NCBI RefSeq assembly: GCF_001029265.1 | Contig: NZ_CP011856.1 | Coordinates: forward strand, 248,001 to 312,000 | Reading direction: 5' to 3' | Length of the DNA: 64,000 nucleotides | Source of the DNA: Spiroplasma eriocheiris | GTDB taxonomy: Bacteria > Bacillota_I > Bacilli_A > Mycoplasmatales > Mycoplasmataceae | Part shown: positions 6,448 through 30,503 of the stretch, piece after piece | How the letters are laid out: each line of letters opens with the position of its first letter | Position numbering within the stretch: the stretch's first letter is position 1 | Translations under genes and position numbers: made by a program | Notes under the pieces: model-generated | Database searches by the model: none | What the model was told of the DNA's origin: nothing | Seen by the model: only the letters and a program-made list of their open reading frames with translations

Positions 6448-7284
6448 AATAAACTTAATTTTTAATATATATTCTTTTTGATGACCAGGTTGCAATTTGT
6501 TAATCCATGGTTTTGCAAAAATATCAACCTGGCCACTATCTTCATAATCTTGATGACCATCCCATGGTTCAATACAAATAAATTTGGCTTGATCATTAAT
6601 TTTTCAAAAAACAAGATTAGGATAGTTTTGAACGGTAATTTTAATTTCTCGGGTGTTATCTGTTAAAATAACTTCTGTTAAATTATGATTTAATAAGTCA
6701 TAACTTTGTCCTTTACTATAATCCATGTGGTTAGGAATAAATTCATTAATAGTGGTACTAACCATATTTTTTTTAAACCAATTATCGCTAGGAATAGTTG
6801 TTAAAACTTGTGGTTTATTAAAACTAATTTTTGCTGTGGGCGGGTCAATAATAAAAGATGGGTGTCATCCAAAGCAATACGGTAAGTCTTGGGTAGTTTC
6901 ATTATTAATAATTGTTACTTGGTTAATAAATTCATCATCGTGAATTTCATATTTTACTTGCAAAGTAAAAGCAAACGGGTATTGGTCTTTGAATTCCTGG
7001 TGATGGATAAATTCAAAAACAATTGTATTTGTTGTTTTCTGAATAATTTTTCAATTTTTAATATCTCGGAAGAAACCATGAATTGGCATTGAATATTTTT
7101 GCCCATTATATCAATACTCGTTATTAATAAGACGTCCAGTTATTGGAAAACAGATTGGATTTTGTTTTTGCCAATCACCATCTAACTGGTAGGTATATTC
7201 TTTCTTTTTGTATTGCACAGATGTTAATTCTAAGGGATTATCATTAATAGTTATTTGGATTTCTTTTGTCTGAATAGTATGCAT
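6442..7284 (-). CDS. Aldose 1-epimerase family protein (LacX/mutarotase-like)
   Basis: The 280-residue product resembles the galactose-mutarotase-like beta-sandwich family, which interconverts anomers of free or phosphorylated sugars. The C-terminus carries the family pattern CIEPWDGHQD, then a Gly-rich turn and LQPGHQKEY before the last strand. The start is ATG at 7282-7284, preceded on the minus strand by an AGAAAGGAAG ribosome site. It is the last gene of a leftward operon, 23 bases after kdgK, so it probably acts on the same uronate or sugar substrate, for example as a uronate mutarotase (inference). The gene is interrupted only by UGA-Trp codons. Confidence 0.75.
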
Positions 7285-7307
7285 TTTAGTTACTTCCTTT
7301 CTAAAGG

Positions 7308-8330
7308 TTATCTAGTAACATCACGAGCAGGTTGGGTTATAAATTTTTTAATTTCATCAATTGTAAAGGAATAATGATCACCATACATAGTATGTTTCAA
7401 AACGCTATTAGCTAGGGCAAAGTCTAATGTAACATTGTCTTCTCAACCATTAAGGACTCCTTGCAAAATTCCGCTTGCAAAAGCATCACCCCCACCAATT
7501 CGATCAATAATGTTGTGAAGGACAACCGGGGTAGTTTGGTAAAATTTGTTATTAGCATATAAAAAACCAGTTAAAATGTTATCTTGTGGAGATTTAACTT
7601 CTCTTTTGGTACATGCCAAAAGTTTCAAATTAGGAAATTCAGCCATTAAGTTTTGCCATCCGGTTTGTAATTCTAATTGATAATCTTCGCTGCTATTATT
7701 AACAATTAGGTTAAGGATGAATTGTAAATCTTTGTGTCCGCAAAAAGCATAATCAACATAGGGCAAGATTGTTAGAATTGCTTGCTGAGCTTCTTGAATC
7801 GTTCACAAATTAGCTCGGTAGTTAAAGTCAAAACTTATAGTTTTATTATTTTTTTGCATTGCTTGAATTAATTTCAAAGCATTTGTTTGAACTGTTTGAT
7901 TTAATGCTAAAGTAATTCCTGAAAGATGGAGATGATCAATTGTTTTGACAATTTTGTTAATTGTCTCCTCATCAGGATTTCAACTTCAAAATGCTGAGTT
8001 GTTCCGATCATAAGTTACTTCACCATTTTTGATACTAGTGGGGGATGATAAATAATATAATCCAATCCGACTATTGTGAGTTGAAGTAATGAAATTGGTT
8101 TTAACACCAAATGAATTTAAATGTTTTTTAAATTTATTACCAATTTGATTTTCGGGAAATTGGCTAATTGCATAAACTTCATTATCCCAACCAGCTAAAT
8201 TGATACCAACATTCATTTCTGCACCACCATAATTAAAACGAACAAAACTACCATCTTCAAAACTAGTTCCCATTTTTGTTGTTAATCGTAACAATGGGTC
8301 TCCTAAAATACCAATGACTTTTTTCTTCAT
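7308..8330 (-). CDS. kdgK: 2-dehydro-3-deoxygluconokinase (PfkB family)
   Basis: The 340-residue kinase would phosphorylate 2-keto-3-deoxygluconate (KDG) to KDPG, the last but one step of hexuronate breakdown. The N-terminus has GILGDPLLRLT and the substrate-side pattern YGGAEMNVGINLAGW typical of KDG kinases. The C-terminal PfkB signature DRIGGGDAFASGI contains the catalytic Asp. Its ATG is directly adjacent to the kdgA stop codon, showing tight translational coupling. Other PfkB sugar kinases could look similar, but the kdgA partner and the uronate genes across the regulator make KdgK by far the best call. Confidence 0.88.
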
Positions 8331-8963
8331 TTAAATATTTTGTGCTAATCGCACATATTCCTTTGCTTTATTAACAACGGCAAGATAATCATCTTTTTCA
8401 ATCGGATTAATTAAATTACCACCAATTCCGCATGCTAAACAACCATTTTTTAGCCATATTTGGAGATTATGCTCATCAACACCGCCAGTTGGCATAATTT
8501 CAATATTTGGTAAAGGTGCTTTAATTGCTTTAATATAATCAGGACTGAAACAACTGCCCGGAAATAGTTTTACTAGTTTTCAACCATTGGCTAAAATATT
8601 AGTCATTTCCGTAATCGTCATAGCTCCCGGAATATATAAAACTTTTTTTGCTTGGCATAACTTACTGATTGCCAAGTTAAAATTAGGTCCAACAATAAAT
8701 TGACATCCCCAAGCAATTGCTTGCTGTGCCAATTCCTCATTAATGACAGTCCCGGCCCCAATTATAATATCGGTTTGTTTTTGATAAGTTGTTTGTATTG
8801 TTTTAATAACTTCTTCAATATTAGGAATTGTAAAAGTTATTTCAATAATTTTGATGTTTCCTTCAATGCATGCTTTAACTGCTGCAATTGCTTTTTGTGC
8901 TGTGGTGGTACGAATTACCGCCACAATTTTTTCGTTCTTTAATGTTAAGAGAACATTTTCCAT
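8331..8963 (-). CDS. kdgA: 2-keto-3-deoxy-6-phosphogluconate aldolase (KHG/KDPG aldolase)
   Basis: The 210-residue class I aldolase would split KDPG into pyruvate and glyceraldehyde-3-phosphate. Visible family features are the VAVIRT start strand, EITFTIPN with the catalytic Glu, IIGAGTV, and the Schiff-base Lys in KLFPGS. The start ATG 8961-8963 is preferred over the in-frame GTG nine bases upstream because AGGTG then lies at normal spacing. It is the first gene of the leftward operon. A promoter and a 28-base palindrome lie immediately upstream, so it is probably controlled by the neighbouring GntR regulator. Confidence 0.92.
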
Positions 8964-22568: not shown

Positions 22569-23330
22569 ATGAAAAGACAAAATATTAAGATTGCAAAATT
22601 AATATTTTATCTAGCAATTATTGGGCTAGTTTTATTTTCATTATCCTTATCTTTTTGGTACACGTTACTCCATTATAAATTAAATTGAATTAACTTTGCT
22701 TTTTACACTTTTTCATGATGAAGTGTTCAAACTAGTTTAATTTTATTACTGTTTGCGCTAGGTGGGGTAATTAATATTTTTTGGCCAAAATATTTACAAT
22801 TTATTAATAATGATAATTTTAAATTATTCTTAGTTTTTATCTCCGTGGTAACTTCAATCTTTTTTACCATTGGGATCTTTGTCAGTTTAGCAACTAATAC
22901 TAAATTTACTCCTAATAATGATGGACAAGCAATTTACTGAATATCAACCGCCATTGGCCATTGAATTTTACCCATCGCTATTATTGTTTATTTTTTTGTT
23001 ACTTCAGAAGTTAAGGAAATTAATCTTAAAAGATTTTATTTAAAAGACTTGCACAAGTTCTATTATTTCCCAATTGTTTATACAATTTATATTGGAGTTC
23101 GGGAAGTTGTTTTATTAGTCCTGCCAGTTGATGAAAAATTATTTAATTATGCCAGCGGGGTAGGCAATTATTATGCCCCATATTTTTTCCAAGATTTTCG
23201 TCAGACTGCTTATTATATTTTATATTTAATTGTGTTGGTAATTCTTATTTTCTTGATTTTAACAATTTTAATTTTAATTAATAATATTCGTTATTATAGA
23301 AGAAAAAACCAGTTGTTAAAAGAAGAATAA
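22569..23330 (+). CDS. Polytopic membrane protein, unknown (possibly DUF1600-like)
   Basis: The 253-residue protein has about six hydrophobic segments separated by short loops, with charged residues at the C-terminus (RYYRRKNQLLKEE). The pattern of Trp and aromatic residues (many encoded by UGA) recalls the mollicute DUF1600 or FAR-17a/Pr6Pr-like membrane families, but I cannot confirm membership. The start follows AAAGGGGTAG. It is 22 bases after rsmI and may be the tail of that operon. Function is unknown. Confidence 0.65.
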
Positions 23331-24488: not shown

Positions 24489-24516
24489 TTGAAATATTTT
24501 AAATTCAAGATATAAT
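24489..24516 (+). promoter_or_regulatory. Sigma-A promoter of candidate small RNA 2
   Basis: TTGAAA (24489-24494) and TATAAT (24511-24516) are spaced by 16 bases, one of the best promoters in the window. It lies just after the hypothetical gene ending at 24458. Confidence 0.65.
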
Positions 24517-24679: not shown

Positions 24680-25831
24680 GTGAAAAAATTAATGGCCGTC
24701 TTTTTGTTATTTTTTCCTGTCAGTGTAACTGTTACCAATGCGGTAATTGCTGTTAGTTGAAAAGATACCAATGATATTAAATATTTAATTACAAAAGAAA
24801 CTTTAACTCGTAATTATTTGTGATCATTAACAAGTTTACGGGGTTATGATGATGGATTAATGCCTTCTATTAGAACAAATGTGCTATTAGCACTTAGCCA
24901 AAATGCCCCATGAATTGATATCAATACTTTAGATATTCAAGTCTATTATGGTAATATTAATGATAATAATTTTTATAAAGCAACTCCAATTGATTTTTCC
25001 GATTTTAAAAATGATGGCTTAATTTTATATTTTACCGTGGGAATTTTTACGAAAGCGGGTAAAAAATATCAGGGTCATCAATTTATTAATTTTGATTTTC
25101 GACCAACCTGAACTTTTCCAGCAAAAGACAAAGTTAGTTTAAATAATAATGGTACGCCCATTAATAGTATTGATAGTTTAGTTAAAGCGTGAAATAGTCT
25201 TTTACAAAACCAAATTATTATTAATAATTTTAATCAACAATTTCAAACGATGGGAGTCGACATTTCGCTCGGGATGGGGTTACAACCTGGTCAAATGCTA
25301 ATTAGTGGTGATACAAAAAATTATTTAAAATTAAGTGGCGAAGAAATTAAAGAAGATAATGGCCATATTACAATAACTGATAATTTATTTAGTTATCTCC
25401 CGGATAAACTTCGCGCAGCTTTATTTAAAATCCCAACAAATAATTTTCTACTACCCGTTGGTCAAGAAATTAATGTTAAAAGTAAGGATATTAAAGATCA
25501 CGGTTATGATTATAGTTATTTAGATTACGAGGTTACCCTAGACTCAACTTTACAAGACTTATTAGTTCCAATGCGCAATTATTTAGTAACAATTATTAAT
25601 AATATTTATCGCAAGGAAATTGACCCTAATACTTTTAGTGTGCAATTTAAAAAGAATAGTTATGCAGACCCCACATTATTAGATTTAACAACTCCAATTA
25701 GAGATTTATGAACTTTCACTAGTCCCGAGGGGGATAAAAAACACTGGGTATGAATGGAAATGTTTAATGCAACTGATACCTTGTTAAATATTTCATCAAC
25801 CCCAGGGTTTCACTTAGCATTTAAGATTTAA
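24680..25831 (+). CDS. Secreted protein, paralogue of the lipoprotein at 28033
   Basis: The 383-residue product has an N-terminal signal-like segment (residues 2-25) but no Cys at its end, so it should be secreted or membrane-anchored rather than lipidated. Start GTG 24680 follows GGGGAG at slightly long spacing; ATG 24692 is a less likely alternative. The N-terminal and C-terminal parts resemble the lipoprotein at 28033: compare IRTNVLLALSQ with LRDHVLAIISQ, and LTTPIRDLW...FHLAFKI with LTTPLVNLW...THITFKI. The two flank a GH123-like lipoprotein in an apparent operon. I recognise no named domain. Confidence 0.7.
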
Positions 25832-25845
25832 GGGAGGGAGCAAAT

Positions 25846-28023
25846 ATGGCATTATCATTGCGTAATTTAACAACAACTTTTTTACTAACTACTTTGGTTG
25901 GTTCTTTAACTACTTTAACGGTTGCTTGTGCCCGAACATTTACGAACGCTAGTGGTGGAAACCATAGTTATGAGAACCAATATAATTTTCAGTATGGTTG
26001 TGAAGATCGCGGACCGGTTCAAGATGATAATGTGTATTTTCACACTTTTTTTGGGGATGCTAAATTTACTTATTCAGTTTATTTAGCTGAATCACAACCG
26101 GAATTTTATGGAATTCGTGATAATTTATTTAACTGTCAAAATGATAATCCAACTTTAACAACTTGAAAAAATGAATATACTAATTTACAGTTAATCATTT
26201 TAAATAAACTTAGTTTGGATAAATTTAATGATTTATCAGTAAGAGTAATTGACAACGATGATCCTAATATTGAGGTTCAAGCAAATTTTTTAACATTTAT
26301 TAAAGCGCATAATAATGCTGCTGGCCGTGACAAGGATATTTACCAAGGGACCCAATATATGCCTGATGCCATTGGTCCAAGTAAGTTGTCTACTTTAAGT
26401 TTTGATGTGCAGCCCATTTGAGTTAGTATTTATACAAAGAATAATGCTCGTAGTGGTTTTCATAATTTAAAATTAGAATTAAAATTCAATGTTAATGGGC
26501 AAAATATTACTTTAACCCGTCCTTTCCAATTGAATGTTAAAAATTATCAGTTAGTAATGGATGATTCTCAACAAGAGCCAAGTGAACGGTTTGGTTTTAG
26601 CGCAACTTCTTACCCCTCAAATGCAATGAATTATGTTGAAAAAACAACTAATAATAATTTAACGACAAATAGTTTGAGTTTGACAGCTGATCAAATTGGC
26701 CCCCGGCCTATGAACATTCCCTATTATTTAACTGATACTTACCAACCATATTTAATTGAACATTTAAAAACCTTAAAAAGAACCAATAACTTTTATTTAT
26801 ATGGAACTGGTTTTAGTCACCAGTTAATTCAATGAACAGGAAAATTATCAAAAAGCGGTTGAAGTGACCAGCAATATGAAGATTATATTAAAAATAACAA
26901 TTTTAGTGATGTTATTAAAGATAAGGACTGGACATGAACATTTGATTTCACAGGGTTAGATGCCTATTTAAAACTAGCAGCTAAATTAGGATATCGACAA
27001 TTTCTTTTTACAACAATGGATACTGGAAATTTTAGTTTTTGGTATTTAAAAGGAGCAAGTGCTACGCAAGGACCCCAACGTGATTTTAAAGTTTCGCTAG
27101 TTAATGCGGGTAATGGGATGCTGGGGAGTGATTTTAATAATTATCTGGAATTTTTACATAGTAAACTAATTAAATCCTTATCGGAATATTGGCACCAAGC
27201 TTCCCAAAAACCAGAATACAAAACTCCTGATGGTAAAACAATAACTCTTTATGATTCATTTGATGAGTTGGCCGATAAGACAAATGAACTAACAATGAAA
27301 AATGTTAATGACAATGATCAGTATCGTCTAATTAAGTCAAATGTTTTTGCCGGATGAAGATTTAAATATGATCCGTTTAACGAAAAAGAAATTCAGGAAA
27401 TCTTTTTGAACAAGTACAACCAAATGATTTTACAACAGCGAGAAATTGTTCAAAAATTTAATAATTTAAATATTTATAAATTACGAAGTAATATATTACG
27501 TCGCAAATCATTAGGAAATTCAACAATGATTTATAGTTCATGAAATAATTTCCCGGCTTCATATTTACAGTCTGATAATAGTGAACAAGTCTGGGGCCCA
27601 TTGCTGGCTTATAAAGTAGGGGCAAATGGTTATGTTCGTTGGGCATATGATTTTTATCGTGATGATTATTATAAATTAGGAGAAGTTAGCTCTGAGTTTG
27701 AAGCTGGGGATAATTTCTTAGTTTATCCTGGTGATATTAAAGGCCCTCGTTTAAGTGTACGTTTTTTAAACTATTTAGCGGGAGTTCAAGAAGTGCATAA
27801 GATGATGCAGTTAATTGAGCTTTATCCGAACAAGCGTTACGACATTAATCGGGCATTAAATGCAATTGGCTTTGCCGGAACCACAACTCGGGATAATAAA
27901 TATAAATGATACCCCCAAGATTTCACAATTAGTGATGTTAAATTCTTACAACCAGGTTTACACTATCAAAAAACAGTTGGCGAACAAGTTTATGAGTTAT
28001 TTATGTATATTGATACATTTTAA
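25846..28023 (+). CDS. Surface lipoprotein with GH123/DUF4091-like glycosidase region
   Basis: The 725-residue product begins with a signal peptide and lipobox LTVAC (Cys about residue 28), so it should sit on the outer membrane face. The C-terminal part (about residues 590-680) has the DUF4091 pattern: GYVRWAYDFYRDD, GDNFLVYPGDIKGPRLSVR, then a helix where DUF4091 proteins have GIEDYEYL. Upstream, LGYRQFLFTTMD and SEYWHQA...LYDSFDELAD resemble the GH123 barrel, in which an Asp-Glu pair is catalytic (beta-N-acetylgalactosaminidase); here the candidates are Asp473-Glu474. Substrate and activity are inferred. The gene follows its neighbour by 14 bases and starts after GGGAGGGAG. No frame disruption. 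Confidence 0.72.
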
Positions 28024-28032
28024 GGAGGAACC

Positions 28033-29211
28033 ATGAAAAGATTACTTTTAAGTTTAATGTCTTTAAATTTTACATTAACTGCTAGTTTATCAATAATTAG
28101 TTGTCAACAAACAACTGTAAAAGCTGATATTTTTGACTTGGCCACGATTAATCCAGAAATTTTAACAAAGCATCATTGAACAATTGACCAGTTATTAGGA
28201 GCGAACAATGGAAAGTTTGGTAGTTTACGTGACCATGTGCTAGCGATTATTAGCCAAGAACTACCACAGTTAGACTTATTAAAAATTAAGGCTGATATTT
28301 ATTATAGTAATCAAACATCAGTTAATCCCCAATTATTAGTTAACTTTAATGATATCAATAACTTAGCACCAATATTTAATTTTACGGTACATTTAACCCC
28401 ATCGGAATATGGACATTATCAAAATGAAAAATGAATTCATTTTGAAAAAAACATTGATTTTTCAAACTTAGATGTTTTCAAAAATGCAACTTATGTTTAT
28501 AATGATCATCCTTTAAAGTTTAATGCCACAGAATTATTAACAACTTTTATTAATAACTATAATAGCATTATTACAAGCGAAGCAGCAAATTCGGAAATTA
28601 AAACATATTTGGAAAACCAAAATTTAATTAATAATAATTTGGAATTACCAAGGAATTTATTTAAAATTAATTATCAAAACTACCAAGAAAATTTAAGTGA
28701 TTATCTTACTTTTAAACAAGATAATGCGAATTTAGTTTTTAATCCTGCTGATAAAGTGTTAGTTCAACAAGAATTAGCGGCAAAAGGATTACAATTCCAT
28801 ACTACTAGCTTTTTAACAGGTTGAAAAGTAACAACTGATGGTAGTGATTTTAATACAAATGATTGACGCTATATTGACTGAAAACCGTTACCAAAAACTT
28901 ATGATAAAAGTACGTTAGTTCAAGATGTAATTGAAGATACAAGAACTTATTTAACTGCACATATTGCATATGTACACAATTCTCATTTCTTAACTAACCA
29001 AGATATTGAAATTGTTATTAAAAAAAGTTACCAACCAAATGCTGATGATGCATGACCATTAACAACCCCATTAGTTAATTTGTGAAAAACCGCCGACCAT
29101 GGGAATTTAAATTATGCTTATGTTTGAATTAGCAAAAGTAATAATAGTTTATTAACAGTGGACAACAGTAAAAGTGTAGCTGGAACCCATATTACTTTTA
29201 AAATAAGTTAG
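28033..29211 (+). CDS. Lipoprotein, paralogue of the secreted protein at 24680
   Basis: The 392-residue product has a signal peptide with lipobox SIISC (Cys about residue 24). Parts of its mature region align by eye with the 24680 product, mainly the first 60 mature residues and the C-terminal 60. It follows the GH123-like lipoprotein by nine bases, with a TAAGGAGG ribosome site overlapping the previous stop. I recognise no enzymatic motif; a binding or accessory role on the cell surface is possible. Confidence 0.72.
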
Positions 29212-29228
29212 AAAAGAGGAAAAACCAA

Positions 29229-30503
29229 ATGGTGAGAGAATTAGAAGTATTTAAATATTTTATTGGTACAAACCTTTGTTTGATATTTTTTAGCACTGCA
29301 GTGGTGGCAATGTTTTATTGAAAAAATTTTCAAATTAGTAGAAAAGCACCCACTATTTTAAAAAGTAAGTTTTATTATGTGATTTATTTTTCATTGCCAA
29401 TAATAATCATCTTGCCAATAGTCGAAATTATCTTATTATTTACAACTTCTAATTTCTATTTTATTAGTAACCCACCATTAACTTGATCATACTCATCGCG
29501 CTTTATTTGTCATTTATTATTGACAATTATTAGTGGTTTATTATTCTGTGGTTTTTGTGGTATTTGATATTTTAACCGCTGAAAATTAATGTTATATTTT
29601 ACTAATGATACCTTGGGGAATTTTTTTGATCAAATTGATCGGGTTAGTTTAAATGCTAATGTAATAAAATATCATGAGGAATTGATTTTTAAATTTAATA
29701 ACCAGTTTATTCAATATCACCAAAATAATCCTTTTTCAAGTTCTTTGCTAAAAATTTTAAATTTAACTATTACTCTTGAGCAAGATCCTATTGTTTTACA
29801 TAAAGTTAATTTTTTAAGAATTAACAAATACTCATTTGCAAAAATTAATTCTCAAAAAAATGATGTTAATTTTATTACGAAAGTTTATGCCGCTTTAATG
29901 TGAAAGCAACTAATAAATTGAATCATCTTATTTTTTAGTTTTATTAATCTGCTGCTAATAATTTTTATTTTTGTAGCTGGAATTGTACAGTGGTCGCCCA
30001 AATTATGAGACTTTTATCATTATTCTCAGCAAAAGTATGTTTTAGTTAGAAATAATATTATTTATATTTTTGCTGTAATTATTGTTAGTTTTAATTTTTT
30101 AGTTTTAACCGGATTAGGAATTAAACTATTTATTAATATTTATAGTCAGAATTGAAAAAATTTGCTTTTTAATATTACTAAAATAATTTATAGTGTCATT
30201 ATTATTAGTTTAAGTCTTTATTTTTTAACAAGTTTAATTAATTTTGTTGATTATTTTAATGCTAAAATAAGTAATTCTAATGTGGTTGCTCCAATTAATG
30301 TAAATGATTTGTTAATTTGATTAAACCAAGATTATATCAAAGGTATGGGGATTATCATTTTATTGCAAATTATTTTCACAAGTTATATTATTGGAAATTT
30401 AACATATGAATTAATAATTAATTTTCAGGCCCAACAAATTGCAAAGAAATTACTGATTAATCATCACTATTGAGGATTTTTGTCTAAAGTTAAGAAGAGT
30501 TAA
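29229..30503 (+). CDS. Polytopic membrane protein of unknown function
   Basis: The 424-residue product has about seven or eight hydrophobic segments: three in the first 120 residues, a hydrophilic stretch of about 100 residues (roughly 120-220), then four or five more. It ends with a short basic tail. Start ATG 29229 follows AAGAGGAAAAACC after the upstream lipoprotein. It is the last gene of the surface-protein operon. No transporter or enzyme motif was recognised; a role in export or anchoring of the preceding proteins is only a guess. Confidence 0.68.

Follow-up and report, generated by a model that had tools for sequence, protein, structure and literature searches.

A GH123-family lipoprotein within a conserved four-gene cassette of Spiroplasma eriocheiris

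What might a glycosidase-like lipoprotein be doing on the surface of a spiroplasma? The question is raised by a gene in the window analysed here – a stretch of 64,000 nucleotides from Spiroplasma eriocheiris (contig NZ_CP011856.1, positions 248,001 to 312,000 of the forward strand) – an organism pathogenic to cultured crabs (PMC4607517, PMC5289999). In the paper library searched there was no report linking Spiroplasma with GH123 or DUF4091. The answer that we favour, and consider probable, is that the protein is a membrane-tethered GH123 enzyme, most likely an exo-beta-N-acetylgalactosaminidase, which works with partners on the beta-GalNAc of arthropod host glycans.

The gene, its lipid anchor and its family

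The open reading frame at 25846-28023 is the real gene of a GH123-family protein. It starts with ATG, directly preceded by a purine-rich ribosome site, and includes eight TGA codons read as tryptophan; under code 4 a single frame runs open from end to end, which upholds the coordinates assigned in the preliminary description. The features of the gene and its product are as follows.

25846..28023, + strand: GH123-family lipoprotein, 725 aa, one open frame under genetic code 4
25846..25929, + strand: lipoprotein signal peptide of the GH123 protein, lipobox ending at Cys28 (PS51257-like pattern)
Residues 99-212 of the GH123 protein: putative GH123 N-terminal domain (beta-sandwich), PF22680 match just below cut-off
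Residues 549-654 of the GH123 protein: best stretch of GH123_cat, Pfam profile match
27262..27267, + strand: codons of D473-E474; pair conserved without exception in 22 homologues, placed on the canonical DE by alignment

Evidence that the product is a lipoprotein, as originally proposed, comes from the lipobox itself and from the invariance of Cys28 in the seven closest relatives (the cassette-type GH123 proteins, discussed below). Spiroplasma cells are wall-less and bounded by a single membrane: the protein, once exported and lipidated at Cys28, would be placed on the outer face of that membrane.

Membership of the GH123/DUF4091 family had been suggested on the strength of three C-terminal motifs – GYVRWAYDF, GDNFLVYPGD and GPRLSVR – all of which are present (residues 595-603, 621-630 and 633-639, respectively). 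The profile search then recommended bears the assignment out: the Pfam family GH123_cat (PF13320, DUF4091), whose curated cut-off is 23.1, matches the protein with 85.6 bits (E 5.4e-24). The match to the N-terminal domain (PF22680; E 6.7e-06) lies, at 26.4 bits, just below the cut-off of 27, and the conserved D174 and W192 of that domain are present. Among solved enzymes, CpNga123 and BvGH123 come closest, the former (PDB 5FQE) being matched at 3e-8 with the single sequence and at 1.5e-13 by profile. A profile-profile comparison (hhalign) of 22 relatives with nine ordinary Bacilli GH123 proteins gave E 3.2e-35 over 464 columns; GH123_cat was matched by 20 of the 22 Spiroplasma-family homologues. 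Judged by sequence, the protein belongs to the known GH123 family as a divergent member. AlphaFold2, run on the single sequence without an alignment, returned a pLDDT of 31 and no usable fold.

Of 60 genomes from the window's family, 25 carry GH123, some of them in the form of fragments or pseudogenes only. None was found in other families of the order among the 198 genomes sampled; GH123 reappears in some of the more distant families of the class. No relatives of the protein were found in the genome_contigs or viral_contigs collections.

Catalytic residues and probable activity

Central to the argument is the active site. Across the 22 homologues, which extend down to 19% identity, 14 columns are invariant, and the sole adjacent pair among them is D473-E474. 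The same pair falls on the invariant DE of the nine ordinary Bacilli proteins, both with hhalign and with each of three MAFFT strategies. Because D473-E474 is invariant among the homologues and aligned with the canonical DE, it is by homology the conserved catalytic DE motif; the candidate Asp-Glu pair picked out in the preliminary description was thus well chosen.

Nine residues are strictly conserved in GH123 (D95, W115, D327, E328, Y392, G427, W431, Y466 and R478 in NgaLy numbering; PMC11087588). Correspondence with NgaLy, set by motif and spacing, maps these to D174, W192, D473, E474, Y563, G595, W599, Y627 and R639, every one of which is present in the protein. The ordinary Bacilli enzymes carry the same residue in all of these columns with one exception – a Val at W192 – on which three alignment strategies agree. 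One observation we count against the best explanation: directly after the DE the Spiroplasma protein has Leu, where the nine ordinary enzymes have Arg and the relatives differ from one another.

Conservation of this kind bears on the possibility that the protein is a surface glycan-binding lipoprotein – an adhesin or receptor that has kept the GH123 fold and no longer needs catalysis. Its neighbours are surface proteins with no assigned role, and two of the 22 homologues no longer score as GH123_cat, as might be expected of such a protein. However, none of the 22 departs from D473, E474 or Y563, a constancy that pure binding does not demand, and we regard this account as highly improbable.

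Assuming that the protein is an enzyme, as we favour, a key issue is what it cuts. Catalysis in GH123 is substrate-assisted: the Asp keeps the 2-acetamido group in place, and the Glu serves as acid/base (PMC11087588). With these residues conserved, the Spiroplasma protein would most plausibly use this chemistry too. A (beta/alpha)8 barrel, to which the N-terminal beta-sandwich and DUF4091 region would lend support, would bind a terminal beta-GalNAc; Asp473 would position the 2-acetamido group of the substrate during its attack on the anomeric carbon, and Glu474 would serve as acid/base, GalNAc being released with its configuration retained.

The statement in the preliminary description that GH123 removes GalNAc stands as the likeliest activity; as the only activity it does not. 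The family also includes oligosaccharide-releasing members and one that accepts beta-GlcNAc as well (a beta-hexosaminidase), all with the same DE motif (PMC11087588), and the specificity of the enzyme is less certain for that reason. The cut might then be a different one: endo, with release of oligosaccharides, or directed also at beta-GlcNAc, for example in the chito-oligosaccharides of arthropod cuticle. At 725 aa the protein is longer than the solved enzymes (542-610), and the extra stretches could shape the site; furthermore, the use of chitin and GlcNAc has been reported for Spiroplasma (PMC4607517), and nagA is present in the genome. Against this, the closest solved matches, CpNga123 and BvGH123, are termed exo-beta-GalNAc enzymes (PMC11087588), and we consider a different cut unlikely. 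The distinction between exo- and endo-type was also approached through W253/Q256, the residues that mark BvGH123 as exo-acting; visually F323/Q326 resemble them, but the two pairs did not coincide in any alignment and the comparison was dropped.

A four-gene cassette and its inheritance

The functional unit exceeds the GH123 gene. It occupies 24680-30503 and comprises four genes on the + strand – A-GH123-B-TM, with gaps of 14, 9 and 17 bases – of which the enzyme gene is the second. The remaining features are listed here.

24489..24516, + strand: promoter-like site 5' of the cassette, 11/12 consensus; weak, the region's count of comparable sites lying within ~2 SD of shuffles
24680..25831, + strand: protein A (383 aa), paralogous to B; N-terminus hydrophobic but lacking a lipobox Cys; no match to a known family
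28033..29211, + strand: lipoprotein B (392 aa), paralogous to A; lipobox with Cys24; no match to a known family
29229..30503, + strand: TM, membrane protein of 424 aa with seven hydrophobic segments; no known family

That A and B are paralogues is evident from their 26% identity (E 2e-15) and from profile comparison (E 3.4e-21). Searches of A, B and TM against Pfam, NCBIfam and PDB gave no credible match, and promoter and terminator scans of the region came out close to the shuffled level. Also 5' of the cassette, at 22569-23330 of the window, is a gene for a 253-aa membrane protein; it is complete in this genome and disrupted in the close relative G005.

The complete cassette is found in seven genomes belonging to two GTDB genera. 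The same four genes recur in the same order in G004, G009, G010, G012 and G013, from the window's genus, and in G148, from another; the flanking genes outside the cassette differ among several of these genomes. In G088 an A homologue precedes the first of two GH123 genes and perhaps a B homologue follows the second. The cassette enzymes form one supported group in the tree, which includes the first GH123 copy of G088. In G005, the nearest relative as judged by neighbouring genes (rsmI, topA and others, 93-97% identical), all four cassette genes are fragmented. Remnants of partner genes occur without the cassette enzyme in G002, G003, G006, G007 and G008, while G001 has a fragment resembling A; an intact A, B or TM without the cassette enzyme was found in no genome examined. 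The simplest reading is that the unit is retained or lost jointly. The cassette is under purifying selection: dN/dS for the enzyme is 0.10 and 0.18 between close pairs and 0.24 in a distant pair, with values for A, B and TM likewise below 1. It is this conserved four-gene block, with its three orphan families, that appears to be the new part, and the cassette appears undescribed.

The position and co-inheritance of A, B and TM point to roles in binding, presenting, anchoring or uptake: the paralogous surface proteins A and B would probably present or bind glycan, and the seven-segment TM may anchor or transport. A bolder proposal, which we advance tentatively, is that the cassette encodes a novel surface glycan-processing machine in which the lipid-anchored GH123, A, B and TM form one complex, cutting and perhaps importing host beta-GalNAc glycans.

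GalNAc catabolism was considered as the reason for the cassette and was not adopted. In addition to nagA the genome carries an AgaS-like gene – its AgaS match scores under the curated cut-off – that adjoins a DeoR-type regulator and a PTS EIICB; the presence of both genes speaks for the reading that we favour. AgaS-like genes are present in three of the seven cassette genomes; four are without one, and GalNAc feeding is therefore no general explanation. The PTS EIICB beside the AgaS-like gene (L092:6525-8443; G000:C1 about 1091524-1093442) is made up of two overlapping frames, 7478-8443 and 6525-7700, and looks like a frameshift.

The missing AgaS-like genes would suit an enzyme that works on the bacterium's own surface, trimming GalNAc-containing glycolipids or glycoproteins of Spiroplasma while TM serves envelope upkeep. 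The surroundings of another GH123 gene in G001 and G009, which adjoins genes for an acyltransferase-family protein and for a 924-aa protein whose G001 copy has a Spiralin domain, speak in the same direction. Yet the entire cassette is dispensable, being decayed or absent in several relatives, and a literature search of titles and abstracts gave no report of GalNAc in spiroplasma glycans; we judge an own-surface role to be quite improbable.

Host glycans as likely substrates, and comparison with known systems

We return to the reading that we favour, an exo-acting enzyme directed at the host. Family membership, conserved residues, lipobox and the cassette with its inheritance are established from sequence; we infer fold, activity, linkage, host target and partner roles. 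The natural substrates would likely be arthropod host glycans that bear beta-GalNAc, for instance as GalNAc-beta-1,4-GlcNAc on glycolipids and N-glycans. Glycolipids of a crustacean contain this disaccharide (PMC3606520), and host glycan substrates for the enzyme are plausible. The lipoprotein may cleave host glycoconjugates, as the preliminary description had it. If the enzyme is active, spiroplasmas would be able, acting from the cell surface, to edit beta-GalNAc glycans, and the cassette suggests an undescribed route by which these bacteria act on the sugars of their arthropod hosts. The locus yields one definite enzyme and a class of substrates open to testing, together with three families of orphan proteins retained or lost alongside the enzyme.

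Within the same bacterial family, further GH123 paralogues (for example in G001, G009, G033, G082 and G171) resemble the cassette enzyme in family, in the invariant DE motif and in having a hydrophobic N-terminus. They differ in occupying separate branches of the tree and in their neighbours; moreover, Trp599 is often Phe or Tyr and the PS51257-like pattern detects no lipobox. The paralogue followed by the 924-aa and acyltransferase-family proteins lies at L041:6812-10633 and L042:7438-11258 (G001 and G009), the Spiralin match having E 4.8e-08. In G088 two GH123 genes share one run (L046:1522-9708) with genes for an A-like protein, a lipoprotein and a small membrane protein. In G001 and G010, a GH123-like branch that has diverged strongly (L043:3342-5471 and L044:4570-6711) has His for the conserved Gly595 but keeps the DE pair; a gene for a small membrane protein follows each copy.

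With CpNga123 (PDB 5FQE, 5FQG) and BvGH123 (PDB 5L7R) the Spiroplasma enzyme shares the DUF4091 region with Y627 and R639, a significant sequence match and, by family alignment, the DE motif. It differs from both in length (725 versus 578-610 aa), in its predicted lipid anchor in a wall-less cell and in its membership of a four-gene cassette, and from the ordinary Bacilli GH123 enzymes in the Leu that replaces Arg after the DE. The same nine conserved residues unite it with GH123 Groups 1-4, with their oligosaccharide-releasing and hexosaminidase members (PMC11087588), and on these residues the substrate-assisted chemistry of those groups would be expected of it. In glycan handling, the proposed cassette complex may be likened to the SusCD systems of Bacteroidota, from which it differs in that the parts are unrelated.
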